From the NCBI RefSeq assembly GCF_002797935.1, contig NZ_PGER01000001.1, positions 5,270,001 through 5,334,000 on the forward strand: 64,000 nt of DNA, in the 5' to 3' direction. A model generated the notes under the pieces. That model made no database searches and was not told the DNA's origin. It was given only the letters and a program-made list of their open reading frames with translations. The DNA is from Flavobacterium sp. 1 (lineage in GTDB: Bacteria; Bacteroidota; Bacteroidia; Flavobacteriales; Flavobacteriaceae). Positions 3,944 to 33,117 of the stretch are shown here, piece after piece. Both the position numbers and the translations under genes were made by a program. How positions within the stretch are numbered: position 1 is the first letter of the stretch; every line of letters starts with the position of its first letter.

Positions 3944-4894
3944 ATGGACAAAAAAAATAAGATTTATATTGCTGGACACAACGGAATGGTTGGCAGTGCT
4001 ATTTGGCGAACATTACTTAATAGCGGATTTAATAATTTAATAGGAGCTTCTAGTAAAGAATTAGATCTTAGAGATCAAAAAGCAGTTCGTGATTTTATTG
4101 CAAAGGAAAATCCTGATGTTATAATTGACGCAGCTGCAAGAGTGGGCGGAATTTTGGCAAATAATGATTATCCATATCAATTTATTATGGAAAATATGCA
4201 AATACAGAACAATCTGATTGATTCAGCTTTGCAAAACGGAGTAGAGAAATTTATTTTCTTAGGGAGTTCTTGTATATATCCAAAATTGGCTCCTCAGCCT
4301 TTAAAAGAAGATTATCTGCTTACTGATACACTTGAGCCAACTAATGAATGGTATGCCATAGCAAAAATTACTGGGGTTAAAACCTGTCAAGCAATCAGGA
4401 AACAATTTGGTAAAGATTATGTCAGCTTAATGCCTACAAATTTGTATGGCACATACGATAATTTCGACTTAAATACTTCGCATGTTTTACCTGCTATGAT
4501 CCGTAAATTTCATGAGGCAAAAGAAAATAATAATGCTCCTGTAACGCTTTGGGGCAGTGGTACTCCAATGCGTGAATTTTTGTTTGTTGATGATATGGCA
4601 AAAGCAGTTATTTTTGCATTAGAGAATAAACTGCCTGAGTATTTATATAATGTAGGAACTGGAGAAGATCTGACAATTAAACAATTAGCAGAAACTATTC
4701 AGCAGATTACAGGACATAAAGGTAAAATTATCTGGGATTCGAGTAAACCAGATGGAACACCTAGAAAGTTAATGGATGTTTCAAAAATGCATGAATTAGG
4801 CTGGAAACATAAGGTTGATCTTGAAGAAGGAATTCAAAAAACCTATGATTGGTTTTTGCAGAATATTGAAAATTTTAAAGAAGTTAAATTGTAG
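3944..4894 (+). CDS. fcl: GDP-L-fucose synthase
   Basis: This enzyme carries out the epimerisation and NADPH reduction of GDP-4-keto-6-deoxymannose to GDP-L-fucose. The 316-residue protein begins with the Rossmann motif 'IYIAGHNGMVGSAI' and carries the family 'FLGSSCIYP' segment with the catalytic Ser and Cys. The SDR Tyr-Lys pair is in 'EWYAIAKITG', and the 'MPTNLYGTYDNFDL' block follows. Length and motifs are typical. It precedes gmd, the enzyme that makes its substrate, and the GT11 fucosyltransferase at 15733-16557 is the probable consumer of its product. It appears to be the first gene of the polysaccharide locus. Confidence 0.95.
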   Translation: MDKKNKIYIAGHNGMVGSAIWRTLLNSGFNNLIGASSKELDLRDQKAVRDFIAKENPDVIIDAAARVGGILANNDYPYQFIMENMQIQNNLIDSALQNGVEKFIFLGSSCIYPKLAPQPLKEDYLLTDTLEPTNEWYAIAKITGVKTCQAIRKQFGKDYVSLMPTNLYGTYDNFDLNTSHVLPAMIRKFHEAKENNNAPVTLWGSGTPMREFLFVDDMAKAVIFALENKLPEYLYNVGTGEDLTIKQLAETIQQITGHKGKIIWDSSKPDGTPRKLMDVSKMHELGWKHKVDLEEGIQKTYDWFLQNIENFKEVKL

Positions 4895-5013: not shown

Positions 5014-6096
5014 ATGAGCAAACAAAAAATAGCATTAGTAACAGGAATTACAGGTCAGGACGGATCGTATTTAGCCGAATTATTATTAGAAAAAGGATAT
5101 CAGGTACACGGAGTTAAAAGACGTGCATCTTCTTTTAATACGCAACGAATTGATCATATCTATCAAGATCAGCATGAGGTACATGTTAATTTTAAGTTGC
5201 ATTATGGAGATTTGACTGATTCAACCAATATCATTAGAATAATTCAGGAAGTACAGCCTGATGAGATTTATAATTTAGGAGCGATGTCTCATGTAAAGGT
5301 ATCTTTTGATTCACCTGAATATGTTGCAAATGTAGATGGATTGGGAACTTTACGAATTTTAGAAGCGGTAAGAATATTGGGTTTAACCAAAAAGACGAGA
5401 GTTTATCAAGCATCAACTTCAGAGCTTTATGGAGGTTTAGCAGAAAATAAAAACGAAAAAGGTTTTTATGATGAAAACTCACCCTTTTACCCGCGTTCTC
5501 CTTACGGTGCGGCTAAAATTTATGGCTTTTGGATAACGAAAAATTACAGGGAAGCTTATGATATGTTTGCTTGTAATGGTATTTTGTTTAATCATGAGTC
5601 ACCGAGACGTGGTGAAACTTTTGTTACACGAAAAATTACTATGGCAACGGCAGCTATTGCAAAAGGAAAACAAGAATGTCTTTACTTGGGTAACCTAAAC
5701 TCACAAAGAGATTGGGGACATGCAAAGGATTATGTTGAAGCGATGTGGAGAATTTTACAGCAAGATGTGCCGGAAGATTATGTAATAGCAACAGGTGTGA
5801 CTACCTATATTAGAGATTTTGTGATCATGTCTTTTGCACAAATAGGAATAGAGTTAACTTTTGAAGGAGAAAATGAAAGTGAAACAGCTAAAATTGCAGC
5901 TTGTAATGATCCTTTGTATCAATTAGAAATAGGGAAAGTAGTAGTGCGTGTAGATCCGGAGTATTATCGTCCTACAGAAGTAGATCTTCTTATTGGAGAT
6001 CCTACAAAATCTAAAACGCAACTGGGCTGGGAGCCTCAATACGATTTAGTAGCTTTGGTAAAAGAGATGGTATCAAGTGATTTAAAATTGTTTTAA
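5014..6096 (+). CDS. gmd: GDP-mannose 4,6-dehydratase
   Basis: Converts GDP-D-mannose to GDP-4-keto-6-deoxy-D-mannose, the precursor of GDP-L-fucose. The 360-residue SDR protein opens with '[19 protein letters not shown]' (NADP-binding) and '[15 protein letters not shown]'. It has the active-site 'STSELYG' and the Tyr-Lys pair in '[10 protein letters not shown]', followed by the family block '[16 protein letters not shown]' and '[15 protein letters not shown]'. Everything needed for catalysis is present and the length is standard. It lies 119 bases after fcl on the same strand. The order fcl-gmd is the reverse of the usual gmd-fcl but has no functional consequence. Confidence 0.96.
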
Positions 6097-6216: not shown

Positions 6217-7749
6217 ATGAAAATATTAGACTGTACTTTACGTGATGGAGGTTACTATACTAATTGGGATTTTGATAAGCAATTAGTTGAAACATATTTT
6301 ACCGCTATAAATAATTTACCGATTGAGTATTTAGAAGTTGGTTATAGAAGCCCCAAATTATCTGGATACTATGGGGAATATTTTTATTGTCCAGATTTTG
6401 TTTTGGCAAAAATAGCTAGCTTAACAAATAAAAAACTGGTTATTATTCTGGATGAGAAAGATGTAAGAGAAGATGTTGTCGAAGAATTGTTGAACCCCTG
6501 TCTTGGAATTATTACCATGGTAAGAATAGCAATAGATCCCAATAATTTGATGCGAGCTATTGCTTTGGCTAAAAAAGTTAAAGCAATGGGGTTTGAGTTA
6601 GGGTTTAATGTAATGTATATGTCCAAATGGAAGAAACTTCCAGAATTTTTATCCAATTTAAAGCATGTTGACGGGCTTGCTGATTATTTTTATATGGTCG
6701 ATTCTTATGGAGGTGTTTATCCTGAAGATGTTAAAGAAATTTTTGCCTTAGTACGAGCTCAAATGGCGACCAAAATTGGTTTTCATGGACATAATAATTT
6801 AGAGCTCGCACTTATTAATACGTTGACAGCAATTGAGTGTGGAGTTGATATGGTAGATGCTACAGTTACGGGAATGGGTAGAGGGGCAGGTAATTTAAAA
6901 ACTGAACTTTTGCTTACAGCATTAAACCAGAGAAATAATTTAGAGGTAGATTTTAATTCGCTTTCTTCAGTTACAGATGCTTTTACAGAATTGCAAAAAG
7001 AATACGAATGGGGTACTAATTTGCCATATATGGTTTCAGGAGCAAATTCTCTTCCTCAGAAAGATGTTATGGATTGGGTAGGGAAAAGATACTATTCGTA
7101 TAATAGTATAATTAGAGCATTAAGTAATCAGTCAAAGGGAATACAAGATAATGAAATATTAAATGAATATCATCCAAGCGAAATATTTAAAAAAGCTTTA
7201 ATAGTAGGAGGAGGTGATAGTGTTAGAGAACATATAGATGGTATTAAAAATTATTTATCATTGAATCCTAATATGGTTATAATACATTCAAGTTCAAGGA
7301 ATGTAAGTTATTTAAATGAGTGTGATAATAAACAATTTCATTGTTTAGCTGGAAATGAAGGACATAGGTTGGAAAAAGTTTTTAATTCTGTTCCAAAGAA
7401 TAGGATTGCAATCTTGCCGCCTTTTCCAAGAACAATGGGAACTTACATACCCGTTAACTTTAAATCAAGCTCTTTTCAACTTTCCGAAATTAACGTAACA
7501 GAAATATATAAAAACTCTATTACAGCTTTAGTTCTTCAGCTAACGAAAGAAATGAATGTTGAAGAATTGATATTTTGTGGTTACGATGGATATAATGGCG
7601 AAATTACACAGCATAAATTAGAGCTGTTTAATGAGAATGAATATTTGTTTAAGAATTTTTCAAAAAATAATTTTAGTTTAAAATCTTTTACACCTACAAA
7701 ATATAAGAGTTTACAACAAGAATCTGTTTATTCTGAACTATACAAATAA
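6217..7749 (+). CDS. HMGL-type (DRE-TIM) aldolase fused to a C-terminal DUF115-like domain
   Basis: The N-terminal half (about residues 1-300) is a DRE-TIM metallolyase barrel. 'LDCTLRDGGYYTNWDF' supplies the catalytic Arg9 and metal-binding Asp10, and 'GFHGHNN' supplies the His190-x-His192 metal pair. Relatives include 4-hydroxy-2-oxovalerate aldolase and homocitrate/HMG-CoA lyases, which make or break C-C bonds with pyruvate or acetyl-CoA. The C-terminal part (about 325-510) begins 'KKALIVGGGDSVREHI' and resembles the nucleotide-sugar-linked DUF115/GT-like fold, so the protein is a fusion. The cytidylyltransferase gene starts 2 bases after its stop and a HAD phosphatase overlaps that, so the three are probably translated together. 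I infer an aldol condensation with pyruvate to give a ulosonic acid; the aldehyde substrate is unknown. Confidence 0.75.
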   Translation: MKILDCTLRDGGYYTNWDFDKQLVETYFTAINNLPIEYLEVGYRSPKLSGYYGEYFYCPDFVLAKIASLTNKKLVIILDEKDVREDVVEELLNPCLGIITMVRIAIDPNNLMRAIALAKKVKAMGFELGFNVMYMSKWKKLPEFLSNLKHVDGLADYFYMVDSYGGVYPEDVKEIFALVRAQMATKIGFHGHNNLELALINTLTAIECGVDMVDATVTGMGRGAGNLKTELLLTALNQRNNLEVDFNSLSSVTDAFTELQKEYEWGTNLPYMVSGANSLPQKDVMDWVGKRYYSYNSIIRALSNQSKGIQDNEILNEYHPSEIFKKALIVGGGDSVREHIDGIKNYLSLNPNMVIIHSSSRNVSYLNECDNKQFHCLAGNEGHRLEKVFNSVPKNRIAILPPFPRTMGTYIPVNFKSSSFQLSEINVTEIYKNSITALVLQLTKEMNVEELIFCGYDGYNGEITQHKLELFNENEYLFKNFSKNNFSLKSFTPTKYKSLQQESVYSELYK

Positions 7750-7751
7750 AT

Positions 7752-8450
7752 ATGGAAGGAGTAAGTGTTTTTTTGCCTACAAGAAAAGGGAGTGAGAGAG
7801 TAGCAAATAAAAATACTAGAATATTTGCTAATGTTGCTAATGGATTATTAGAAGTTAAATTAAATCAGCTTCTACAAACAAAATTAGTAGATGAAATAAT
7901 TTTATCTTCGAATGATGAAGCATCTTTAGATTATGGAAAAAAACTTTCTAAAGAAGAAAAAAGACTGAAAATTATTGAAAGGCCGGATCATCTTGCATTA
8001 AGTAGCACTAATCTTCTTGATTTAGTTAAATATGTGCCTGCAATTTGCTCTATGCCTCATCTTTTATGGACTCACGTTACTTCACCATTTGTAACAGGAG
8101 AAGATTATGATAGTGCAATTGAAACATATTTTAAAACATTAAAAGAGGGGAATGATTCTTTAATGAGTGTTAAAACCCTTCAAAATTTTTTATGGTCAAA
8201 AGAAAAAAATGATCTAATCAATAGAATGTCAGAAATTAAATGGCCAAGAACTCAGGATTTAATGCCGTTGTATGAAATTGATAGTGCTTTTTTTATCGCA
8301 TCACGAAATGTTTATATAGATAATCAGGATAGAATTGGAAAAAAACCTTTTTTAATGGAACAATCAGGATATAAATCATTTGATGTTGATTGGGAAGATG
8401 ATTTTGAATTAGCAGAATTAATATACAAACATTTGAATGGAAAAGTTTAA
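7752..8450 (+). CDS. CMP-sugar (acylneuraminate-type) cytidylyltransferase
   Basis: The 232-residue protein has the nucleotide-binding signature of CMP-ulosonate synthetases at its start ('FLPTRKGSERVANKNTR', compare the consensus PxRxGSKxxxxKN). A central 'HVTSPFVTGEDYDSAI' follows, and near the C-terminus the 'FDVDWEDDFELAE' metal/sugar-binding segment. It should activate a 2-keto-3-deoxy acid sugar (neuraminate-, Kdo- or legionaminate-like) with CTP. Its position directly between the aldolase and the HAD phosphatase suggests it activates the product of those enzymes. No NeuB-type synthase or NeuC-type epimerase is seen in the window, so the sugar is probably not standard Neu5Ac made by the standard route. 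The specific substrate is not predictable by eye. Confidence 0.85.
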   Translation: MEGVSVFLPTRKGSERVANKNTRIFANVANGLLEVKLNQLLQTKLVDEIILSSNDEASLDYGKKLSKEEKRLKIIERPDHLALSSTNLLDLVKYVPAICSMPHLLWTHVTSPFVTGEDYDSAIETYFKTLKEGNDSLMSVKTLQNFLWSKEKNDLINRMSEIKWPRTQDLMPLYEIDSAFFIASRNVYIDNQDRIGKKPFLMEQSGYKSFDVDWEDDFELAELIYKHLNGKV

Positions 8451-9057
8451 AACAATTCTCTGGGATTTTGATGGTGTTATAATGGACTCTATGCCGGTTC
8501 GTGATAAAGGATTCGAAATCGTTTTACAAAGCTATCCTGAGGACCAGGTTGATCTTTTGATGGATTATCATCGTAAAAACGGAGGATTATCTCGTTATAA
8601 TAAGTTTAGATATTTTTTTGAAGAAATAAGAAAGGAGCCTATAACTAAAGATCAAATTCAAATATTGGCTGAAGAGTTTTCTGTTATAATGCTAAAGAAT
8701 CTTTTGGATAAAAATTTATTAATTCAAGATTCTACAAACTTTATAAAAGAAAACCATAAAAAATATAATATGCATATTGTTTCAGGATCGGATGGAAATG
8801 AGTTGAGGTATATTTGTGAAAGTCTGGGGTTGTCAAAATATTTTATTTCAATTCATGGTTCTCCTACATCCAAAAAAGAGCTAGTAAAAGATTTATTAAT
8901 CGCAAATAAATATACAAATGATGAAACTTGTCTTATTGGAGATTCCCTTAATGATTTAGAAGCTGCAGAGGTAAATAATATTGCTTTCCTTGGATATAAT
9001 AATGAATTATTGATTTCGAAATCTAAAAGATACATCCAGATGTTTTCGAATATTTAA
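8437..9057 (+). CDS. HAD-superfamily sugar phosphatase
   Basis: A 206-residue HAD hydrolase with all four motifs: motif I 'LWDFDGVIMDSMPV' (nucleophile Asp), motif II 'HIVSGSDGNEL', a Lys in 'SPTSKKELVKDLL' as motif III, and motif IV 'CLIGDSLNDLEAA'. The small alpha-helical cap between motifs I and II makes it a beta-phosphoglucomutase/Gph-like type rather than the capless KdsC type. It overlaps the cytidylyltransferase gene by 14 bases, which indicates translational coupling. The likely role is to dephosphorylate the aldolase product (ulosonate phosphate) before CMP activation, as KdsC or NeuB-linked phosphatases do in known pathways; this role is inferred from context. Confidence 0.8.
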   Translation: MEKFKTILWDFDGVIMDSMPVRDKGFEIVLQSYPEDQVDLLMDYHRKNGGLSRYNKFRYFFEEIRKEPITKDQIQILAEEFSVIMLKNLLDKNLLIQDSTNFIKENHKKYNMHIVSGSDGNELRYICESLGLSKYFISIHGSPTSKKELVKDLLIANKYTNDETCLIGDSLNDLEAAEVNNIAFLGYNNELLISKSKRYIQMFSNI

Positions 9058-9126
9058 TTATTTAATAGACCATTTTACTCTAAACAATCACTAAATAACC
9101 AATTTTTTATTATATAAAAAAAATTT

Positions 9127-10398
9127 ATGAAAAAGAACTACTTTACTTTTCTATATTTATTTTTGATATTTATTTTTACTTATTGTAGCTCAGAAAAAGA
9201 TTCTTTTTCTGAGAAGCCTCCAATAGATAATAACAAATCTCCAACGGAAGAAGCTTTTACCTTATTTCCAAAAGATCATGTTCCTAATTCTGACTTATAT
9301 GGTGAGGGGGAGATATTGCAGAATCAGAGTGATAATCCTAAGTTTCTTTTATCTACAAGAAAGTGGCAAGGTGTACCCTCAATTGGTAAAGATAAATTCG
9401 GTAATTTATATGTAGCTTTTTTAGCTGGATCATGTCCTGGAGAATGTGATCTTAATTACCTGACCGTTTCGGTAAGCAGAGATAATGGAATAAGTTGGAG
9501 CGATAACAAATTAATATTATCGGTTACTCCTGAAGACTCTACAAAGATGAATGAGGCAAATTTTTTCAATGATAAATTTGGTAATCTTTATATGTATTGG
9601 GGTAAATACGTAAAGAAAAAAGGCGTTAAGGAATGGACTATAAGTTGGTATTCTAAGATTGATTTATCAGATGATGGTACTAAAATTAACTATACCCCGC
9701 CTCGAAGAATCGCAGAAGGGATTATGTTAAACAAATTGTTCTATTCTGATATCTCGGATCAAGTTATTTTTCCTATTGCTAGATGGTATGAAGGGGATCC
9801 TGAATTGCATAGACCTTTTATATACAAGGCAAACTATGGAGCTAAAAGCTTAACTAATTTTACAAAAGTGGGAGCAATTCCTGTGCCTGTTTCTGTGAGT
9901 GGGATTTATGAACATATGATTGTTCAGCTTAAAGATAATACTTATTTGGGAATGATTAGGACTAAAGATGGAATTTATTACTCAAAAAGCAGTGATGGAA
10001 ATGTATGGGAGGATAGCAAGAGATTTACAGCTGTCGGCGCTACTACATATTCCCGATTTTATTTAGGTAAATTAAATTCTGGACGATTAATACTTATTTT
10101 TAATAATGACTATCTTAGGTCTAAAATGACTGTTTGCCTTTCTGAAGATGATGGTGTTACTTGGCCTTATAAAGTAGTGATAGATAATTATAAAGTACTT
10201 GTTAATACAGATACAGGTGATTATCATGGTGTAAGTTATCCTGATATGATTGAAACATCTCCTGGATTGTTGAACATAGTGTATGATCGCTTAAGAGCTC
10301 CGGAAGGAAACATTATTTTTGTTAAAATTTTAGAAGATGATATTTTGAAAAATAATACTTCCAATATTTTTACAACTAAAATAAGTACACTCAAATAA
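9127..10398 (+). CDS. BNR/Asp-box (sialidase-like) beta-propeller lipoprotein
   Basis: The 423-residue protein has a lipoprotein signal ending 'FTYCSSE' (Cys20), so it is membrane-anchored outside the cytoplasm. Three Asp-box type motifs are visible: 'SVSRDNGISWSD', 'SSDGNVWED' and 'SEDDGVTWP'. These mark sialidase-like beta-propellers (GH33 and relatives). An N-terminal 'QGVPSIGKDKFGNLYVAF' is the first blade. The canonical sialidase Arg triad and Tyr/Glu pair could not be assigned by eye, so it may be a binding protein or a different hydrolase or lyase. The gene sits between CMP-ulosonate genes and the flippase, which suggests that it trims or binds the ulosonate-containing polysaccharide. 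Confidence 0.7.
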   Translation: MKKNYFTFLYLFLIFIFTYCSSEKDSFSEKPPIDNNKSPTEEAFTLFPKDHVPNSDLYGEGEILQNQSDNPKFLLSTRKWQGVPSIGKDKFGNLYVAFLAGSCPGECDLNYLTVSVSRDNGISWSDNKLILSVTPEDSTKMNEANFFNDKFGNLYMYWGKYVKKKGVKEWTISWYSKIDLSDDGTKINYTPPRRIAEGIMLNKLFYSDISDQVIFPIARWYEGDPELHRPFIYKANYGAKSLTNFTKVGAIPVPVSVSGIYEHMIVQLKDNTYLGMIRTKDGIYYSKSSDGNVWEDSKRFTAVGATTYSRFYLGKLNSGRLILIFNNDYLRSKMTVCLSEDDGVTWPYKVVIDNYKVLVNTDTGDYHGVSYPDMIETSPGLLNIVYDRLRAPEGNIIFVKILEDDILKNNTSNIFTTKISTLK

Positions 10399-10453
10399 AT
10401 ATATTGAAAGTAATTCAGACTCTTGGGTCAAAAAACTATTTTTATAACAAAAA

Positions 10454-11971
10454 ATGTCAAATAAAGCTTTAGCAAAGAATACACTTTTCCTTTATTTCAG
10501 GATGTTCCTTTCCTTGGTAATATCTCTTTATACTTCGAGGATTGTTTTGCGAGTACTAGGTGTTGAAAATTTTGGTATATATAACCTAGTAGGCGGGGTA
10601 GTGGTAATGTTTTCTTTTTTAAATGCAGCCATGTCTTCTACCACGCAGCGCTATATAAATATAGCGTTTACATCTAGCGTATTGGAGGATATAAGAAAAG
10701 TTTTCTCTACAAGTCTTAATGTTCATCTGGTTATTTCAATTGTAATAGTTATTCTTTCTGAAACTGTTGGTCTTTGGTTTTTAAACTGCAAATTAAATAT
10801 ACCGGATAATCGTATGTATGCTGCAAATGTAGTATACCAGATCTCAACTATTACAACCGTATTTGGAGTGTTACAAGTTCCGTATAATGCCATGATACTT
10901 GCGCATGAAAAATTTTCTTTTTTTGCGATTCTGGGCATTTTTGAAAGTTTGTCTAAACTGGCTGTGGTTGGCATACTAATTTATTTTCCAATATATGATT
11001 ATTTGGTGTTGTATAGTTTGTTGATTGCATTAGTTATTGTTATGATTAATTTTATTTATTATATATATTGTCACAAAATATTTAAAAAAGAAGTTGAATA
11101 TCATAACTTTAAAGATAAGGCTTTGTTTAAAGAATTAGTTACTTTTTCCAGCTGGATGCTTATGGGGCAGGTGGCTGCAATAGGTGCAACTGAAGGGCTA
11201 AATATGATTTTGAATATATTTGTAGGTGTTTTGGTTAATGCTTCAATGGGTATTGCTATTCAGGTTAATAATGCAGTGTACTCATTTGTGTCTAATTTTC
11301 AGACTGCTTTCAGACCACAACTTATACAATCCTACGCCCGAAAAGAATTAGATGCACATAAGAAAATGGTATTAAATACTTCAAAATATTCCTTTTTTTT
11401 AATGGCATTATTATCAGCTCCTGTTCTTTTTTTTTCGAATTATATTTTGACGCTATGGCTCGGTGATTCGCTTCCTCCCTATGTGGTAAGGTTTGTACAG
11501 TTTGTCATCCTGATTTCTTTAATAGACTCACTGTCTGGGCCTTTTTGGATGTCTGCACAAGCTATTGGGAGTATAAAAGAATATAATATTGTACTAACCA
11601 TCATTAATATGTTAGTACTACCGTTAGCTTATTTATTGCTTTATTTAGGTTTCGATCCTGTTTCGGTAATAATTGGGAAATTGTGTATCAGTGTAGTAAA
11701 TCAAATTTTCAGGTACTTCTTTATTAATAAATATCTTCATTTTGATAAAAAAGAACTCGTTTCATATTTTGTGGCTGTCCTTATACCATTTTCCTACCTG
11801 ATTGCCCTTGTTGTCTTCAGTTTAGATTATAAGTTAAACTTTTTAGAATTTGCAGGCGGGGCGTCAGTTTTAGAGGTAATACTTTTGACGATTTTTATCG
11901 TATTTGGCTTAAGTGCTGTCGATCGAAAAATAATTAATGAGTTTATTAAGAATAAAATTAAAAAGCAATGA
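10454..11971 (+). CDS. wzx: Polysaccharide flippase (Wzx, MOP superfamily)
   Basis: A 505-residue polytopic membrane protein with about 12-14 hydrophobic segments spread over the whole length. It opens 'NTLFLYFRMFLSLVISLYTSRIVLRVLG', here recognised by its first half: a short amphipathic start, then 'FGIYNLVGGVVVMFSFLN'. This arrangement is typical of Wzx/RfbX exporters that flip undecaprenyl-linked repeat units across the inner membrane. The length is at the upper end of the family. Its stop codon overlaps the next gene's ATG (ATGA), so the sialyltransferase-like gene is translationally coupled. Together with Wzy, Wza and Wzc in the same cluster it defines a Wzx/Wzy-dependent pathway. Confidence 0.87.
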   Translation: MSNKALAKNTLFLYFRMFLSLVISLYTSRIVLRVLGVENFGIYNLVGGVVVMFSFLNAAMSSTTQRYINIAFTSSVLEDIRKVFSTSLNVHLVISIVIVILSETVGLWFLNCKLNIPDNRMYAANVVYQISTITTVFGVLQVPYNAMILAHEKFSFFAILGIFESLSKLAVVGILIYFPIYDYLVLYSLLIALVIVMINFIYYIYCHKIFKKEVEYHNFKDKALFKELVTFSSWMLMGQVAAIGATEGLNMILNIFVGVLVNASMGIAIQVNNAVYSFVSNFQTAFRPQLIQSYARKELDAHKKMVLNTSKYSFFLMALLSAPVLFFSNYILTLWLGDSLPPYVVRFVQFVILISLIDSLSGPFWMSAQAIGSIKEYNIVLTIINMLVLPLAYLLLYLGFDPVSVIIGKLCISVVNQIFRYFFINKYLHFDKKELVSYFVAVLIPFSYLIALVVFSLDYKLNFLEFAGGASVLEVILLTIFIVFGLSAVDRKIINEFIKNKIKKQ

Positions 11972-12726
11972 ATGTTATAAAGAAGATAGTAAATAAACTA
12001 AAATTTAAGGTTTGTTTACAAAAAGCAAAATTCAGCTCTAAGAAGGTACTTATTAATTTTGATCCAAATTGGTTTAAAGATAAGCGTGTAGCGATTGTAG
12101 GTGGAGCAGATTCAGTGCTTAAAGAAAAATTAGGAGGCTATATTGATGGGTTTGATGTTGTTGTAAGGATTAATAAAGGAGTAGAGATTATAGCAACCCA
12201 ATTTGAGTTTGTGGGTAAGAAAACTGATGTGCTTTTTCACAGTTTTCATGAAATTCCTTCTAATATGGGAGGAAGTCCAATTACTCCCGAATTGTGGCAT
12301 GAACGCAATGTAAAAATACTTTTGTTTGCACTAAACTATGAGTATGGCTGGAATATCCTTAATCTTTTTCTTTTGTTTTTGAAAAACACAAAAAGAAGAT
12401 TTAAGTTTTCGCAATTACCTAAAGATTTGTATTTAAAAAATGTGGCAGTAGTGCAGCCTACAGGGCCTACAACAGGATTTACTGCTATAAATACTGTGTT
12501 TAACTGTCAGCCAAAAGAACTTTACATTACTGGGATTACTTTTTTTAAGACGCCACACAATGCTGAATACCGAATTGTCAGTGATGATTTTTTAAAGGAA
12601 ACATTGTGTGTAAATAATAGTCATGATGCGGAAGTAGAATATCGTCATGTTAAGAATTTGTATTTACAGAACACTGACATTATAAAACCAGATGCAACAT
12701 TAGAGCTGATTTTTAAGAACAACTAA
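11968..12726 (+). CDS. GT29 (sialyltransferase-like) glycosyltransferase
   Basis: A 252-residue cytoplasmic protein carrying recognisable sialyl motifs. Motif L spans about residues 41-71 ('VAIVGGADSVLKEKLGGYID' then 'VVVRINKG'). Motif S spans about 159-193 ('VVQPTGPTTGFTAINTVF', ending 'ELYITGITFF'). Motif VS is His219-xxxx-Glu224. These are the CMP-sugar binding and catalytic blocks of family GT29, best known in animals but also present in bacterial polysaccharide loci. It should transfer the CMP-activated ulosonate made by the genes at 6217-9057. Its ATG overlaps the flippase stop. The first 40 residues are basic and could associate with the membrane. The acceptor is unknown. Confidence 0.75.
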   Translation: MNVIKKIVNKLKFKVCLQKAKFSSKKVLINFDPNWFKDKRVAIVGGADSVLKEKLGGYIDGFDVVVRINKGVEIIATQFEFVGKKTDVLFHSFHEIPSNMGGSPITPELWHERNVKILLFALNYEYGWNILNLFLLFLKNTKRRFKFSQLPKDLYLKNVAVVQPTGPTTGFTAINTVFNCQPKELYITGITFFKTPHNAEYRIVSDDFLKETLCVNNSHDAEVEYRHVKNLYLQNTDIIKPDATLELIFKNN

Positions 12727-12839: not shown

Positions 12840-13867
12840 ATGTATATCGACCCAAAAGTAACAGTAGCAATACCTGTTTATAATGTAGAACCGTATGTAG
12901 AACGTTGTATAAATTCTGTAATAAATCAGGATTATAAAAATATAGAAATTCTAATTACTTATGATGTTAGTGACGATAATAGTTTGCAGATAGTAATTGA
13001 TACATTGGAAAAAAGCACATTATCGTACAAGATTATTGAAAAAAAGAAAGAAGAAAAAGGATTAGGAAAATCACGAAATATTATTCTTGATAATTTTCAA
13101 GGAGATTACCTTTACTTTTTAGATAGTGATGACTACATAGCCCCATTTACAATTTCTTTAATGGTTACTGAGGCTATCTCTAACGATGCAGATATTGTGG
13201 CTGCATCTCATTGTAGTTTTGATGAGACAGAAAATAAAGTTGATAAATTTCAATATGCTGTTAAAAGAACTTTTGATAATAGTTTGTTGAAGTATTATGT
13301 TTATGTTGATAATGGCTATTTTTCTGTTTATTCATGGAATAAACTTTATAAAAAATCTTTTTTACGTGATAATAATATAAAGTGCATGCACGACGTAATT
13401 GAAGATGCCATTTTTTCTTTTCTTATAATTGAAAAAGCAAAAAAACAGTTGTTTTGCCAGATATTACTCTTCATTATTTAATTCGCAATTCATCAATTAC
13501 AAACACAATAATGTATAATGATGTATCATTAGATACAGCAAGAATTTATCTCTCTATTCGAGATTATAAATATTTTTTGAAAAAAGACAATGATAAATTA
13601 GAATCTATATGCTGTAATATTGAAGCCTTTCTTTTTGGCTATATTTCAACGGTAAGAAATTCTTATAATAGTAAAAATATAAATAATCAAGAAAAATTAG
13701 ATCTCTGTAAATCGGCATTTATAACACCTGACATACCATTTAAATACTTTTTTCAGTCTTTACATTCTAAAAAAGTAAGTCTAATACTGCTATTAGTAGT
13801 AAAGGTATTGCCGTTCAGATTTAATATGCTTTTAGTTAAATTATATCATAAAATTAAAAGTCTATGA
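12840..13867 (+). pseudogene. GT2 glycosyltransferase interrupted by a -1 frameshift at an A7 tract
   Basis: The first frame (12840-13481) encodes a GT2 N-terminal domain: 'VTVAIPVYNVEPYVERCI', the DxD-like 'YFLDSDDYIAP' and 'CMHDVIEDAIFSFLIIEKA'. It then runs into a stop after an unrelated tail. Shifting back one base at the A7 run (13439-13445, GC-AAAAAAA-CAG) continues as 'TVVLPDITLHYLIRNSSITN', the expected GT2 continuation, and reads on to TGA at 13865-13867. The joined product would be about 342 residues, the normal family length. The site has the form A_AAA_AAA, which permits -1 slippage, so this may be a pseudogene, a phase-variable gene, a programmed shift or a base-call error. The second part ends in an ATGA overlap with the next gene. 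Confidence 0.8.
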
Positions 13868-16566: not shown

Positions 16567-17796
16567 ATGTCTAAAATAAATAGGGTTCAATTTAAAAGGT
16601 GTTTGTCATTAGGAATCCTTTTTTTTTCAGGAACAGGTTTTAATATCCTCCATATGAGTGGTGGTCTTATAATTTGGTTATTGATTTTACTTTTTTTAAA
16701 TTTCAAAAATTTACGCAGAGTATTGTTGCCAGATTTGTTGGTTATAACAGCTTTGTGTTTTATTCTTTTTGTGTTTTATTCTATTAAAAGTAATGAGATA
16801 CCATATTTTATTTTTGTAGCTATAGTTTCTTCATATATTGTCTTACTAAATTATCGTATACCTAACTATCGAAATAAATTCACAAGCGATATTACCATAC
16901 TCCTTAAATTTTATATGTACTTCACTTTATTACATATAATATTTTTATTTGTTGGTCAGTCGCTGTTTCAACCGACTTATGTTAATACTTATTATCGACA
17001 AATAGGTTATGTTTTATGGTACATTGATTCTGGAGGACCATCATTTTTAAATAATTATAGATTGTGCGCATTAGCTTGGGAACCTGGTATTTGGCAAATG
17101 TACTTAAATATGAATCTTTTACTAATGTTTTATTGGAAAAAAAAGTTTATTGAGATTTTTTTATCAATACTTGCAATAATATTTACATTCTCAACCACTG
17201 GAATAATTTTAATGTTATTTGTTATACTTTCATATTTTTTATACATTAAATCAGTGAAAAATGTTAAAGCTATAATCATTCCTGTATTAATATTATTAAG
17301 TTTATCAACTCTTATTATTAATAATATTACTGATAAGTTTCAGGGAAGTGGAGCAACTTCATCTATGGTAAGACTAGGTGATTTTACCTTAGGAATAAAA
17401 ATGCTAGAAAGAAGTCCTATTATTGGTGAAGATCCTAAAAAGACACTAAATTCTTCTGATCAAATGATATTAAAGGTAAGAGAACAAAATTGGGATGATT
17501 CATTACAGGGTGACAAAACTGGATATTTGAGTGCAGAAATGGTGAATGGATTATTTATTTTTTTATTGGATTTCGGTTTAATTGTAGGAGGCTATTTATT
17601 GTATAAAACGTATTCTTTTAACTTGTTTACTGATAATAAATTGAAAAATATATTCATTACTGTTATTATACTGACACTTTTATCGGAACCAATTTCTCGT
17701 ACAGGGTTTTTCTTCTTTTTTGTGCTTGCATCAATTATAATGGTACAAAAAAAGAAGAATTTTTTTTTTAAAAATAATTCATTGATAATAAATTAA
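16567..17796 (+). CDS. wzy: Polysaccharide polymerase (Wzy-like, O-antigen ligase/polymerase fold)
   Basis: A 409-residue very hydrophobic protein with roughly ten to twelve membrane segments. It has a large extracytoplasmic loop in the second half containing 'SSMVRLGDFTLGIKMLERSP' followed by 'IIGEDP', the layout typical of Wzy polymerases where a conserved Arg-containing loop precedes a 'P(I/L)xGxG'-like motif. Sequence similarity within this family is always low, so the call rests on topology, loop and position among flippase and transferase genes. The gene ends near a run of ten T (17760-17769) encoding three Phe; slippage there would alter only the last few residues. Confidence 0.7.
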   Translation: MSKINRVQFKRCLSLGILFFSGTGFNILHMSGGLIIWLLILLFLNFKNLRRVLLPDLLVITALCFILFVFYSIKSNEIPYFIFVAIVSSYIVLLNYRIPNYRNKFTSDITILLKFYMYFTLLHIIFLFVGQSLFQPTYVNTYYRQIGYVLWYIDSGGPSFLNNYRLCALAWEPGIWQMYLNMNLLLMFYWKKKFIEIFLSILAIIFTFSTTGIILMLFVILSYFLYIKSVKNVKAIIIPVLILLSLSTLIINNITDKFQGSGATSSMVRLGDFTLGIKMLERSPIIGEDPKKTLNSSDQMILKVREQNWDDSLQGDKTGYLSAEMVNGLFIFLLDFGLIVGGYLLYKTYSFNLFTDNKLKNIFITVIILTLLSEPISRTGFFFFFVLASIIMVQKKKNFFFKNNSLIIN

Positions 17797-28608: not shown

Positions 28609-29788
28609 TTTTTATTGTGATTTTTATTTCAAATTGAGATTTGTTTTTTTTGTCTTTTTTCAAACTAATAATTTCAAAATTTCCCAACCAATTCATTTTT
28701 TTTAGACTTTCCATCCAAGTGTTAAATGAAGATTCATTAAAAGTTTCTCCTTTTACATTTATGGTGTTAGAGTCAAAAATTAATTTTTGGTTTGCTTTTG
28801 ATTCCTTGGTTAGGGGAGTTATTTCTAAAACGGTTAATGAGACATCTCGCGGAACTATTTTAATGATTTCATAAGAATAGAAGGATAGGAATTTTGAAGA
28901 TGAGAAGCCTGATTCTAACAGTATTTTTTCTTTATTTTCTTTTTGTTTTTCTAAATCTAATGTTTGCTGATAGTTTTTATCGGTATATATATTTTGAATA
29001 TTCAGAGCTGTGTTTTTGGATGTATAATATTGAATTAAAAAGAAACTTATCAAAAGCGAAATCAAGAAACCAACTAGTATTGAGATTCCAAAATATTTAA
29101 AAGCTTTCTTGTATATAATTTCGTCTGTATTTAATGTTTCAATTTTTGTTTTTGAAATTTCTTTAGATTTTATAAAAAAATCAATTACTGTAGCATATAA
29201 AGGCAAGTATATGTTAGAGATAGTTTCGTTTCCAATTATGTAATTCTCTTTTTTGGTAAAATCAGTTTGTTTTACAAATTTATGTAGTTTGCTATTTTTG
29301 AATTCTAATAGTAAATCATTTGAAAGTATTACTTCTTTTTTTATTGAATTAATCAATATTGCTGAAATGAATGACCCTAAATAGATATCAATTATTTGAA
29401 AATTATTTTTTTTGAATTTTGAGAGAGTATCGATTATAATATTTTTTCTGCTGAAGCTTATAAAATCAATGTTTAAGCCTTTTAAGCTTATGTGATATAT
29501 AGAGTTTAAATCAATGTTTTTATACCAACTTACATCAGCTTCATTGTTGAAATCAATAGCCTTGTTTAATACGCCCTTTCCGTCAATAAATAAAAGTAAC
29601 GGTAAATTTGGATCTACATTTTTTTTAAGGTCCTCAAATTCTGTAAATGAAGCCATAGAAACAATCGTTACTTTATTTCCCTTTTTTTTAACTGTTAAAA
29701 CATGATAAAGCTCTTCATTATCTTTTTTAATGATTCCTATAACGTGTAATTCGTTAATTTGTATTATTTTAGATAGAACTGTAATCAT
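28601..29788 (-). CDS. GspL-like (PilM-PilN fusion) assembly platform protein
   Basis: The 395-residue protein has a cytoplasmic N-terminal domain of about 230 residues whose size and beta-rich start fit the actin-like PilM/GspL cytoplasmic fold. One membrane segment follows (about 232-254, 'YFGISILVGFLISLLISFFL'), then a coiled linker and a periplasmic domain of about 110 residues like PilN. It should link the GspE ATPase to the inner-membrane platform. Its start overlaps the last base of the secretin gene, and the PilO/GspM-like gene follows with an 8-base overlap. Conserved actin-fold nucleotide residues could not be assigned by eye. Confidence 0.66.
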   Translation of the reverse strand: MITVLSKIIQINELHVIGIIKKDNEELYHVLTVKKKGNKVTIVSMASFTEFEDLKKNVDPNLPLLLFIDGKGVLNKAIDFNNEADVSWYKNIDLNSIYHISLKGLNIDFISFSRKNIIIDTLSKFKKNNFQIIDIYLGSFISAILINSIKKEVILSNDLLLEFKNSKLHKFVKQTDFTKKENYIIGNETISNIYLPLYATVIDFFIKSKEISKTKIETLNTDEIIYKKAFKYFGISILVGFLISLLISFFLIQYYTSKNTALNIQNIYTDKNYQQTLDLEKQKENKEKILLESGFSSSKFLSFYSYEIIKIVPRDVSLTVLEITPLTKESKANQKLIFDSNTINVKGETFNESSFNTWMESLKKMNWLGNFEIISLKKDKKNKSQFEIKITIKNV

Positions 29789-31713
29789 TAATATACTACT
29801 GTTGGTTTAATAAATAGATGCAATTTTGACGTGCTTTTTCCTTTTTGTCTGCTGCTAAAAAACCATTTAATGATTGGTATTCTTGAAATTACAGGTGTTC
29901 CCGTTCCAGAATTCTCTTTCTTTAATTCGTCTAAACCTCCTAATAAAATCATTTCGTTATTTTTCACCCTAACTAGGGATTCGAATTTTTGTGTAGCTTT
30001 TCCAGGAGGAGCATCTTCACCTGCTCTGGCTAAAAAGGAGCTTTTTTCAACAACTATGGTTAAAGTCACATTTTCATCAGTTGACACAAACGGTTTAATT
30101 GATAGGCTTAGATTGGCATCTGTAGATTTCCAAACACCAGAGTTTAAAACATCGTTTCCAATATTATTGTTAATTAATCTATTAGTCTGTTCAAAATAAT
30201 AGCTGGTTTCTCCAATTGACAATTTTGCTTCATGACCACTTATAGTTGCTATTTTGGGAGTTGATTCTACATTAATTATGGAATTATTCTCGAGTAATTT
30301 TAAATTAGCATAAAAGGATTCGGCTACTTTGCCTAATTTAAAAATTCCAAAACCGTTAAAAGCATCAATTAGAGAATTTATAGAAGATCCATTTACAACG
30401 ACATCAGCAGTTGGATTTGTAGATGGAAATATTGTGCCACCAGTAACTGCTTTATTTAATTTGTCTATTCCGATCTTCATTCCAGTTTGAATAGAATATG
30501 ATTTATTATACTGAACAATAATTACCTCAATTTGAACCATAGGAACAACTTTGTCTATTTGTTTTATGTATAATTTTAATTCATCAACAGTATTCTTTGA
30601 TCCAGAAACTATTAATCCGTTCAATTCTGTAAACTCTTTTATCTCTAATTTGTCGGAAAAAACTTTTGGTAAAGAACCAAGAACTAGTTCTATAGATCTA
30701 TTTTCCATCTGTATTAGTTCAGTCACTCTTAATCCTTCTGCAATTTGCTCTCCTATTAAATAAAATTCTCCTTGTTTTTTGAAAGTGTATTTTTTTCCTT
30801 CAAGGATTTGTTCCAAAAGATCGTCAAATGTTATATTTTCTACAGAAAGCGTGATTTTTTCATTTTCAGGTTTGTTATAAAAAAAATAATTGATTTTTAG
30901 TTTTTCTGCTGCTTCGGTTATTAGATCCGCGACATCAGCGGCATATGCTTTTATGGTTAATAGTCCATTTTTGCTGGCTGAAACATCATAATACCCTGGG
31001 AGACCCACGGCAGCTTTTGGCTGTTTGGCTTTTAAATTAGAATTGTTACTTGTTAAATTTGCCGTTGATTCTGTGTTGTTTTTTTCAATATAATAAATTC
31101 CATCATCATCCTTTGCTGCTAATAGATTATTTGACTTTGCAATCATTTGTATTACTTGGTCAAATGGGCGATTTAATATATAGGAGGAAACGGTTATGTT
31201 TCTGATGGTTGGGGCCAAGATCAAATTCTTACTTGTTTTGTCTATAATTGTTTTAATAACGGACGATAAAGTGTCATTTTCCAATTTAACGGATAAGAAA
31301 TCATTTAGCGGATTATATGTGACATCGATTATTTTAGCAGTTTTTTTTTGGACAATAACTCTTTCAATTCTTTTGTTGAAAATAATAATGTTATTTCTAA
31401 AAGTTACTTCGAGATCATATTTTTGCACTAAATGTATAAATACGTCTTTAACTTTTACATCAAAAAAATTATTGGACACCATTTGATTTAGACTCTGATC
31501 TACATCAACATTTAATTGATGATCTTCTGAGATAGTAGAAATAAAGTCATGAAGTGTAAGTCCATTTATATCTATTTTTATTGATTCGTCAAGTCCTTTA
31601 TTTTGTGCTGACATTGCATCAAAATTCTTAACTAATTCATTTATATCTTGTTGAGCTATAATAGTATTTGTGAAAAATAAACCAATTAGAACGTAAATAA
31701 TTTGTTTGAACAT
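29788..31713 (-). CDS. gspD: Secretin (GspD/PilQ-like outer-membrane channel)
   Basis: The 641-residue protein has a signal peptide of about 20 residues ('LIGLFFTNTIIAQ'). STN/N0- and N1-type domains follow ('LTLHDFISTISEDHQLNVDV', 'DLITEAAEKLKINYFF' with 'ISVENITFDDLLEQIL'-like blocks), then the C-terminal secretin domain (about 440-641) with 'VESTPKIATISGHEAKLSIG', 'MILLGGLDELKKENSGTGTP' and the closing 'ISRIPIIKWFFSSRQ'. These are the hallmark secretin motifs. It forms the outer-membrane pore. The N-terminal part contains two similar 'F..VK..F..LV..Y.L' modules, as in PilQ. It follows the gspE gene with no gap. Confidence 0.92.
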   Translation of the reverse strand: MFKQIIYVLIGLFFTNTIIAQQDINELVKNFDAMSAQNKGLDESIKIDINGLTLHDFISTISEDHQLNVDVDQSLNQMVSNNFFDVKVKDVFIHLVQKYDLEVTFRNNIIIFNKRIERVIVQKKTAKIIDVTYNPLNDFLSVKLENDTLSSVIKTIIDKTSKNLILAPTIRNITVSSYILNRPFDQVIQMIAKSNNLLAAKDDDGIYYIEKNNTESTANLTSNNSNLKAKQPKAAVGLPGYYDVSASKNGLLTIKAYAADVADLITEAAEKLKINYFFYNKPENEKITLSVENITFDDLLEQILEGKKYTFKKQGEFYLIGEQIAEGLRVTELIQMENRSIELVLGSLPKVFSDKLEIKEFTELNGLIVSGSKNTVDELKLYIKQIDKVVPMVQIEVIIVQYNKSYSIQTGMKIGIDKLNKAVTGGTIFPSTNPTADVVVNGSSINSLIDAFNGFGIFKLGKVAESFYANLKLLENNSIINVESTPKIATISGHEAKLSIGETSYYFEQTNRLINNNIGNDVLNSGVWKSTDANLSLSIKPFVSTDENVTLTIVVEKSSFLARAGEDAPPGKATQKFESLVRVKNNEMILLGGLDELKKENSGTGTPVISRIPIIKWFFSSRQKGKSTSKLHLFIKPTVVY

Positions 31714-33117
31714 TTATATGTTTATTAAAATAGAATAAATTTCTTCTAGTGCCGTTTCTCCTTTTGATAAGATATCAAATGCCTTTTCTGACAATGATTT
31801 GTAGTTATCATTAGTATTAAATTGTTTTGATATAGTATTGTTTTTTATTGCTTCAACAATAGTATTTTCAATTGGTAAAACTTCATAAATAGCAGTACGG
31901 CCTTTATAGCCTGTATGATAACATTTGTTACAGCCTACACCCTTATAATAGTTGGATATTTCATAAGGAAATTGAAAATTACCAGGAAAATCACTTTTAT
32001 TGCATTCAACCTCTTTCTTACAATCATTGCATAATTTTCTTATTAATCGTTGCGCTACCGAAAGATTTAAAGTCTCGGCAATCAAATAAGAGGGGACTCC
32101 CATATCAATTAATCTTGAGATTGTCCCTATTGCTGAATTGGTATGAATTGTCGATAAAACTAAATGACCTGTTAAGGAGGCTCTAATTGCCATTAAAGCT
32201 GTTTCTGAATCTCGAATTTCACCAAGCATAATCACATCGGGATCTTGTCGTAAAAATGATTTTAAGGCAGTCGAAAAAGTAAGCCCGATGTCTTCTTTTA
32301 ATTGAACCTGATTGATTCCTTTTAGTGTATATTCAATTGGATCTTCTACTGTAACAATATTTCTTTTACTATCATTGAGCAATCTCAGAGTAGCGTATAG
32401 CGTTGTTGTTTTTCCAGACCCGGTTGGTCCGCTTATTAAAATAATTCCATTTGGTTTTTTTACAGCTTCTAGATAGTTCTGTAATTCTTCTTGCTGAAGG
32501 CCTAGAGTATTCAAATCAATATTTGATGCATCTTGTCCTAACAAACGCATAACTATTTTCTCTCCAAATAATGTTGGCAAAATGGAGACTCTTATGTCAA
32601 ATGAATCGTTTGTAATTCTTCCGTCTTGCGGTAGGCGTTTTTCGGTAATGTTAAGCTTGGCTTTTATCTTTACTTTATTAACTAATTCAAGATAATTGTC
32701 TCTTTCAACTTTATATCGCTCGATTAATTGCCCATCAATTCTAAACCGAATTCTAGATGAATCTTCATAAATTTCAAAATGTATATCACTGCATTTTAGA
32801 GATTTTGCTTCTCCCAATAAATTTTCAAGAAAATCACCTTTATCAACATTAATTGATTTACTTGAATTAGTAAGCCGTTCTTTGCGATAATAAATGGATA
32901 ATGCTTTTTCAATTTCTGATGAATCAAACGAGATTAATGATATGTTTTTTCCAATAAAAAGTTCTAATTCTTCTTTGGTATCCAGATTGTTATTTGATTC
33001 ATCTATATAAAGTTCTAAACTAGAGTCAGACACAGTTTTTGGTAATACCCTATACTGATTTGCCAGGTCATTGGACAAAATATGCTGATTTTCTGGATGA
33101 ACAATTATAGTTTGCAT
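31714..33117 (-). CDS. gspE: Secretion/pilus assembly ATPase (GspE/PilB)
   Basis: A 467-residue type II/IV secretion ATPase. An N-terminal domain of about 90 residues precedes the catalytic core with 'DIHFEIYEDSSRIRFRIDGQ', Walker A 'LISGPTGSGKTTTLYATL' near residue 230, the Asp box 'TVEDPIEYTLKGINQVQ', Walker B 'DVIMLGEIRDSETA' and the His box 'GHLVLSTIHTNSAIG'. Two CxxC pairs ('CNDC' and 'CNKC') form the zinc-binding element usual for GspE/PilB assembly ATPases and absent from PilT retraction ATPases. No second PilT-like ATPase is seen nearby, which favours a secretion or pseudopilus role over a retractile pilus. Confidence 0.95.
   Translation of the reverse strand: MQTIIVHPENQHILSNDLANQYRVLPKTVSDSSLELYIDESNNNLDTKEELELFIGKNISLISFDSSEIEKALSIYYRKERLTNSSKSINVDKGDFLENLLGEAKSLKCSDIHFEIYEDSSRIRFRIDGQLIERYKVERDNYLELVNKVKIKAKLNITEKRLPQDGRITNDSFDIRVSILPTLFGEKIVMRLLGQDASNIDLNTLGLQQEELQNYLEAVKKPNGIILISGPTGSGKTTTLYATLRLLNDSKRNIVTVEDPIEYTLKGINQVQLKEDIGLTFSTALKSFLRQDPDVIMLGEIRDSETALMAIRASLTGHLVLSTIHTNSAIGTISRLIDMGVPSYLIAETLNLSVAQRLIRKLCNDCKKEVECNKSDFPGNFQFPYEISNYYKGVGCNKCYHTGYKGRTAIYEVLPIENTIVEAIKNNTISKQFNTNDNYKSLSEKAFDILSKGETALEEIYSILINI

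Follow-up and report, generated by a model that had tools for sequence, protein, structure and literature searches.

PEP-dependent synthases are the enzymes known to make sialic acids, Kdo, and related bacterial sugars. In the pathways to CMP-Kdo (KdsA–KdsC–KdsB) and CMP-sialic acid (NeuB/NANS–phosphatase–NeuA), a synthase acts with a HAD phosphatase and a CTP-dependent activating enzyme. We analyzed a 64,000-nucleotide stretch of Flavobacterium sp. 1 DNA (the window) that contains a gene trio of likewise composition, with a cytidylyltransferase (CT) from the same Pfam family as those of the KdsB and NeuA pathways. Compared to these pathways, however, the place of the PEP-dependent synthase is taken by a DRE-TIM pyruvate-aldolase-like enzyme from a different family, and the phosphatase is of the HAD_2 type. 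We also count the Maf flagellin glycosyltransferase and the CstII/GT29 sialyltransferases among the closest known systems. Based on gene fusion, linkage, fold, conserved active-site residues, and the lack of a PEP-synthase match in some genomes, we consider it likely (probability ~0.75) that the trio makes a CMP-activated sialic-acid-like sugar from pyruvate and is thus a PEP-independent counterpart of KdsA–KdsC–KdsB. The locus is a Flavobacterium-type capsule gene cluster with the following features:

3944..4894, + strand: GDP-fucose synthase-like gene, an upstream sugar gene of the same locus (NCBIfam 478.4 bits; cut-off 500)
5014..6096, + strand: GDP-mannose 4,6-dehydratase, an upstream sugar gene of the same locus (NCBIfam 559.5 bits; cut-off 415)
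6217..7749, + strand: DRE-TIM (HMGL-like, HOA-aldolase-like) aldolase, 510 aa (Pfam HMGL-like 83.7 bits)
7168..7749, + strand: aldolase C-terminal domain (aa 318–510), Maf/MptE/sialyltransferase-like Rossmann fold
7752..8450, + strand: putative CMP-ulosonate CT of the NeuA/PseF-like branch, 232 aa (CTP_transf_3)
8437..9057, + strand: HAD-family phosphatase, 206 aa (Pfam HAD_2 56.6 bits)
9127..10398, + strand: BNR propeller lipoprotein (Pfam BNR_2 63.3 bits)
10454..11971, + strand: Wzx-type flippase (Pfam Polysacc_synt 32.3 bits)
11968..12726, + strand: GT29-like (sialyltransferase-like) enzyme, 252 aa (Pfam Glyco_transf_29 32.9 bits; cut-off 23)

An ORF check reproduced the coordinates of all six ORFs within 6217..12726. 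A sequence-only reading of this DNA had described tightly packed aldolase, CT, and HAD genes followed by lipoprotein, flippase, and GT29-like genes; each gene lies where that reading placed it and is backed by Pfam. The aldolase–CT gap is 2 bases, HAD overlaps CT by 14 bases, and the GT29-like gene overlaps the flippase gene by 4 bases.

We examined this arrangement in 80 bacterial loci, the best 80 of 171 pattern-scan hits and a set that favors close relatives. A CT was present within 3 kb downstream of the aldolase in 79 of these loci, and the 80th stops at a contig end. Among the other genes on that strand in these loci, the count was 18 of 612, in a control that omits aldolases, CTs, genes whose 3-kb stretch contains the trio's CT, and genes with less than 3 kb downstream. 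Thus, aldolase–CT pairing is far above chance. The CT has been swapped repeatedly for other CT types, which we sorted by clustering and by visual inspection of a FastTree tree, with the slot downstream of the aldolase still occupied. HAD follows aldolase–CT in 71 of the best 80 of 171 loci, is cut off in two (L014 and L032), and is incomplete in L031; it was not found in six (L056, L076, L077, L079, L080, and L083), where 'not found', here and for other gene families below, means at the profile thresholds used and in the DNA examined. The phosphate step is therefore not universal. Among 18 further genome regions, of which 12 are records already in the pattern-scan set and six are new copies, CT and HAD lay downstream in 17, and one region was cut. 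The triad that the sequence-only reading proposed to seek across genomes is a real conserved module, found in polysaccharide loci of several phyla; Pedobacter cryoconitis is one environmental relative that carries it. We found no pairing of this aldolase with a cytidylyltransferase in the titles and abstract starts of the open-licence papers that our searches listed.

The linkage extends to predicted viruses, where 29 of 33 contigs encode the aldolase fused to a CMP-Kdo-synthetase-like domain in one frame. None of 50,697 deposited phage records contained most of the aldolase–CT fusion, and nine matched one part; thus, the fusion rests on metagenomic contigs. A viral fusion protein makes the proposed activity testable with one purified protein.

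The window aldolase consists of a catalytic barrel (residues ~1–312) and a Maf/sialyltransferase-fold domain (residues 318–510), the latter missed by the sequence-only reading. Arg9, Asp10, His190, and His192, which that reading had described correctly, are identical in 80 of 80 bacterial relatives (best 80 of 171) and lie outside the peptide patterns used to find the loci (residues 12–18 and 129–135). The enzyme has the DRE-TIM barrel with RD and HxH expected of a 4-hydroxy-2-oxovalerate (HOA) aldolase (EC 4.1.3.39). Its scores of 105.6 and 93.8 bits fall short of the two curated NCBI thresholds for HOA aldolase, 229 and 286 bits respectively. DmpG, BphI, and AmnG, which are HOA aldolases, are ~20% identical to the window aldolase. 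Compared to these enzymes, it has an extra C-terminal Maf-like domain, its next gene does not encode an acylating dehydrogenase, and a tyrosine replaces the catalytic histidine. This residue, Tyr13, aligns with the catalytic histidine of DmpG, His21, and is kept in 80 of 80 relatives (best 80 of 171), although residue 13 sits inside a search pattern. Given Tyr13 and the scores below the HOA cut-offs, aldolase activity with pyruvate is not assured. Acylating acetaldehyde dehydrogenase was absent as a partner gene, and the neighbors of the aldolase in the window encode the GDP-mannose dehydratase and the CT.

A solved member of the same family, PDB 3dxi, is the N-terminal domain of the Bacteroides vulgatus 'putative aldolase' BVU_2661 and is 57% identical over the barrel. 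It was solved without the C-domain under a title that gives no function, and a literature search under its two names listed papers with titles on imaging or unrelated subjects. If correct, the proposed pathway would assign a function to a sizeable family, the 'aldolase catalytic domain-containing proteins', whose solved N-domain has none. Three plasmids carry single-domain relatives (~33% identity) with no CT annotated up to about 9 kb away, indicating that the wider aldolase family is not confined to a CMP-sugar role. On the C-terminal part, the Maf/MptE-like family PF01973 scored 21.2 bits, under its Pfam gathering score of 34.6, and it matched 11 of 20 aldolase relatives at E values up to 0.1; a same-fold test placed the C-terminal part and the Maf/MptE-like domain in one fold.

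The window CT exceeded the Pfam gathering score for CTP_transf_3 (27.6 vs 22.6 bits), and it matched PpNeuA in the PDB (E 1.3e-6). Two scanned partner CTs exceeded NCBI cut-offs for CMP-Kdo synthetase subfamilies. The window HAD protein weakly matched 3kbb, a phosphatase of phosphorylated carbohydrates (E 9e-4).

From these features we infer the donor (pyruvate), acceptor (an aldehyde phosphate), direction, and product of the aldolase reaction, as well as the role of the C-terminal domain and the donor used by the GT29-like enzyme. The barrel, which resembles the HOA-aldolase branch of DRE-TIM enzymes, would form a pyruvate enolate at a divalent metal ion bound by Asp10, His190, and His192 and would stabilize this enolate through Arg9; the roles given to these residues follow DmpG. 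The enolate would attack the aldehyde of a short, probably phosphorylated sugar to give a 4-hydroxy-2-keto acid, that is, a 3-deoxy-2-ulosonic acid. The HAD enzyme would presumably strip the phosphate from the ulosonic acid phosphate, and the CT would join the ulosonic acid to CMP. Most likely, the C-terminal Maf/sialyltransferase-like domain would bind the CMP-sugar, acting either in feedback sensing or as a transferase, and a CMP-ulosonate glycosyltransferase, perhaps the GT29-like enzyme, would add the sugar to a Wzx/Wzy-type surface polysaccharide. We lean slightly toward a broader proposal, in which a second, PEP-independent CMP-ulosonate route operates in Bacteroidota, Balneolota, Verrucomicrobiota, Alphaproteobacteria, and predicted phages, with the DRE-TIM pyruvate aldolase joined to one of two partners: the Maf/sialyltransferase-fold domain, as sensor or transferase, or, in viral contigs, the CT, which would unite condensation and activation in a single protein. 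Triose, tetrose, or pentose phosphates may be the starting sugars, giving products shorter than Kdo or sialic acid. Such a dedicated route would account for cytidylyltransferases in genomes without NeuB and would hint that surface polysaccharides contain acidic sugars not yet described.

As the sequence-only reading had said, the window contains no NeuB/KdsA-type synthase; the genome's matches, two NeuB-type genes plus a single KdsA, all lie outside it, and the genome has three further CTs (one split). The NeuB-type genes encode a pseudaminic acid synthase (524.4 bits) and an N-acetylneuraminate synthase (402.7 bits), both over cut-offs, raising the alternative of an ordinary sialic-type pathway in which the window CT acts on what a NeuB elsewhere in the genome makes and the aldolase is catabolic or accessory. 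Two ORFs make up the split CT beside the N-acetylneuraminate synthase, leaving the window CT as a possible partner of this second NeuB, and NeuB also occurs within the flanks examined of 13 loci (best 80 of 171) and in 12 of 17 other aldolase-bearing genomes. Nevertheless, the pseudaminic set has its own complete PseF-type CT, over cut-off, the window CT falls far under the NCBI cut-off for the PseF subfamily (51.4 of 205.7 bits), and NeuB was not found in five of the 17 genomes, three of which also gave no KdsA match. We therefore regard an ordinary sialic-type pathway as highly improbable. A synthase elsewhere dedicated to the window CT, which the sequence-only reading had said would count against its proposal, was not clearly found, as the PseF-type CT and a KdsB accompany two of the synthases and only the second NeuB has a split CT; genomes with the module and no NeuB match, which the same reading proposed to look for, exist (five of 17).

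A different division of labor is unlikely but better placed: the DRE-TIM enzyme might not be the final ulosonic-acid maker in all members and instead make or trim an aldehyde precursor; the addition of pyruvate would then fall to an HpcH/HpaI-type aldolase encoded inside or outside the cluster. HpcH/HpaI, a second pyruvate-aldolase family, lies between aldolase and CT in 10 loci (best 80 of 171) and in both G485 copies, where it may be the real pyruvate aldolase; its alignment retains residues of the class II type, EHG and RV among them. A one-aldolase scheme thus leaves these ten loci unexplained. No HpcH/HpaI gene adjoins the aldolase in the other 70 loci (best 80 of 171), however, and in the viral fusions the partner of the CT is the DRE-TIM enzyme rather than HpcH. 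We give very little credence to a role of the DRE-TIM enzyme as a CoA-dependent synthase of the citramalate/malate type, producing malic, 2-hydroxyglutaric, or a similar acid as an acyl substituent and adjoining the CT only because both serve one polysaccharide. Citramalate synthases belong to the same superfamily, and R-malic acid (Flavobacterium psychrophilum) and R-2-hydroxyglutaric acid (Flexibacter) are described in PMC3210612 as components of O-polysaccharides of this group. Both score and Z were higher for the window aldolase against HOA aldolases than against such synthases, however, and the fusion to a CMP-Kdo-synthetase-like domain and the near-constant CT adjacency also argue against a CoA-dependent synthase.

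Among the remaining genes, the BNR lipoprotein is an inconstant part of the module; its best PDB match, a sialidase, was not significant (E 0.016 over 40 residues). The co-occurrence of a GT29-like gene with the aldolase, which the sequence-only reading proposed to test, was seen in 15 loci (best 80 of 171) and not in the remainder. The window's GT29-like enzyme is a candidate user of the CMP-sugar. It has in common with GT29 sialyltransferases the residues of the L, S, and VS motifs, which are invariant across 16 alignment rows, but it is bacterial and short. A single-sequence search found no solved relative, and the family profile matched ST6Gal1 (4mps, E 1.3e-9) and ST3Gal1.

The window, bases 5270001–5334000 of the single-contig, 5.35-Mb genome, carries a surface polysaccharide locus of the Wzx/Wzy type, with CpsB/CapC, Wzz/GNVR, Poly_export, sugar transferase, and GDP-fucose genes, glycosyltransferases, and a Wzy polymerase. 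The six ORFs of the sequence-only reading, which run from a DRE-TIM (HMGL-like) aldolase to a GT29-like enzyme, were present as described when we checked ORFs in the window, and the gene arrangement it reported was right. The aldolase is single-copy in this genome; a second match, at 33 bits, is a different DRE-TIM enzyme.

6217–7749, + strand, DRE-TIM aldolase with a C-terminal Maf/sialyltransferase-fold domain
7752–8450, + strand, cytidylyltransferase (CT)
8437–9057, + strand, HAD phosphatase
16567–17796, Wzy polymerase, named by eye
29788–33117, − strand, secretin and T2SSE ATPase gene pair
54049–58479, + strand, large LRR/PKD surface protein

A pattern scan of one genome per species (84,980 species) returned 171 aldolase relatives, and the best 80 were kept, the nearest named ones being Flavobacterium proteins with 82–89% identity. 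Among these best 80 of 171, a CT lies on the same strand within 3 kb downstream in 79 loci, as the first (67), second (10), or third (2) gene after the aldolase, and 71 loci have a HAD gene within 3.5 kb downstream; a profile search found no HAD in six. The lone CT exception, L032, reaches a contig end, and the start of a CT is visible there in the same record (G191). As a control, a CT was present within 3 kb downstream of 18 of 612 other same-strand genes in the same loci, excluding genes with the trio's own CT in that stretch and genes with less than 3 kb of downstream sequence. Aldolase and CT, like CT and HAD, overlap or are separated by a few bases in most loci. The 80 loci are mostly from Bacteroidota, plus Balneolota and one Verrucomicrobiota record, and a Leisingera (Alphaproteobacteria) plasmid has the same order at 24.5% identity, with genes annotated as aldolase, 3-deoxy-manno-octulosonate cytidylyltransferase, and HAD. 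The aldolase is patchily distributed, as is usual for surface-polysaccharide genes, occurring in 1 of 148 genomes drawn from the class, 10 of 249 from the genus, and 9 of 395 from the phylum (window genome counted in each).

The slot after the aldolase is conserved; the CT filling it is not. On a tree, the CTs form NeuA/PseF-like, KdsB-like, and smaller groups, and CT type changes 19 times along the aldolase tree compared to a shuffled mean of 34.9, which shows clustering of CT types as well. Counting well-supported branches only, at least nine changes are required for the window's CT type and at least eight for the KdsB-like type. Because the same slot was refilled repeatedly by other CT types, these trees speak for a functional tie between the CT and the aldolase product over mere inherited gene order.

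In 29 of the 33 aldolase-bearing contigs of a viral collection, the aldolase runs in frame into a KdsB-type domain; these fusions form 14 clusters at 90% identity. One scored 283.6 bits against a CMP-Kdo synthetase model (cut-off 255) and matches in the PDB both 3dxi, the N-domain structure of the Bacteroides vulgatus 'putative aldolase' BVU_2661, and 1gq9. The CT is the next gene, unfused, in viral contigs L087, L093, and L118, and none was seen in the available sequence of L119, which stops at the contig end. No deposited phage record (50,697 searched) had most of the fusion, and nine matched one part of it. The aldolase's fusion partner is either a CT or a domain folded like the CMP-nonulosonate transferases. 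The viral fusions are without a HAD; in them it would fall to the CT step by itself to shift the equilibrium.

The sequence-only reading had proposed that the aldolase joins pyruvate to a sugar-derived aldehyde phosphate, with the HAD, CT, and GT29-like enzyme then acting in turn. CT linkage, slot refilling, and viral fusions support the core of this idea well, and its details are unproved: as predicted from the genes, the trio would be a variant of CMP-ulosonic acid biosynthesis, working like the KdsA–KdsC–KdsB route to CMP-Kdo but with a different first enzyme.

Alternatively, the CT might serve the product of a NeuB elsewhere in the genome, with a catabolic or accessory aldolase. In the window genome, profiles match two NeuB proteins, four CTs, and two KdsA candidates, of which one passes the cut-off and the other scores weakly (56.7 bits). 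The first of the NeuB proteins, a pseudaminic acid synthase (524.4 bits, cut-off 340.25), is grouped with PseC (455.2 bits, cut-off 423.5) and a PseF-type CT (283.4 bits, cut-off 205.7); the CT at 1484346 is KdsB (207.2 bits, cut-off 155.2) and would serve the KdsA; and the fourth CT adjoins the aldolase. The second NeuB scores as an N-acetylneuraminate synthase (402.7 bits, cut-off 399.65); next to it are a UDP-GlcNAc 2-epimerase and a split CT, two ORFs of ~89 and ~147 aa (L166, G000:C1 near 5134177–5134870). The aldolase-adjacent CT could in principle serve this synthase, the main caveat within the window genome, and its naming as an N-acetylneuraminate synthase with a split CT alongside slightly raises the odds of the alternative, which we nevertheless consider very improbable. 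By profile search, NeuB is present in 12 of 17 other aldolase-bearing genomes and was not found in five (G326, G569, G434, G485, and G495); KdsA is present in G326 and G569 and was not found in the other three. The single-contig G485 has two CTs only, each in one of two aldolase clusters that both include an HpcH/HpaI aldolase. G495 (~290 contigs) has one CT, inside an aldolase cluster with no HpcH, and G434 has three CT matches, one below cut-off, with one of the three adjoining the aldolase. The cleanest case is G569, a single contig with no NeuB match, one KdsA over cut-off, and two CTs, one of which adjoins the aldolase in a cluster with no HpcH.

Neighboring genes also bear on the chemistry of the proposed CMP-ulosonic acid route. 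In 10 of the 80 loci (L015, L017, L025, L035, L036, L038, L041, L043, L064, and L082), an HpcH/HpaI aldolase (GarL/HpaI-like, under NCBI cut-offs) separates the DRE-TIM aldolase from the CT, so these operons encode two pyruvate-aldolase families. A KDG-kinase-like PfkB gene takes the place of the HAD in L083 (10243–11271), and some loci carry an inserted epimerase-type SDR. Since known relatives of the HpcH/HpaI and PfkB enzymes act on 2-keto-3-deoxy acids, this company fits a ulosonic acid product, which one or two aldol steps might form. Single-domain aldolase relatives (~33% identity) occur on Mesorhizobium, Paraburkholderia, and Priestia plasmids with no annotated CT within ~9 kb (gene tables incomplete), and thus function cannot be read from the family name by itself. 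Those on the Mesorhizobium and Paraburkholderia plasmids (L123 and L124) are accompanied by long HAD-IA proteins (1545–1878 bases) and SDR genes, a setting different from that of the trio.

The GT29-like enzyme of the window retains L, S, and VS motif residues, including H-x4-E, that are invariant in the 16 rows of an alignment, and its family profile matches ST6Gal1 (E 1.3e-9) and ST3Gal1 (1.7e-6). Its gene is within 4.5 kb in 15 of the 80 loci, directly after the HAD in 14. The enzyme is a good candidate for using the CMP-sugar, yet no fixed component of the module. The GT2 glycosyltransferase 3' of it (12840–13867) reads as two ORFs that overlap in different frames, one of 213 aa and one of 137 aa with a TTG start, which could be one disrupted gene or a pair of genes. 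BNR propeller proteins occur in or near some aldolase clusters (window 9127–10398, L012, L054, and L075), and in L075 the gene is placed between CT and HAD.
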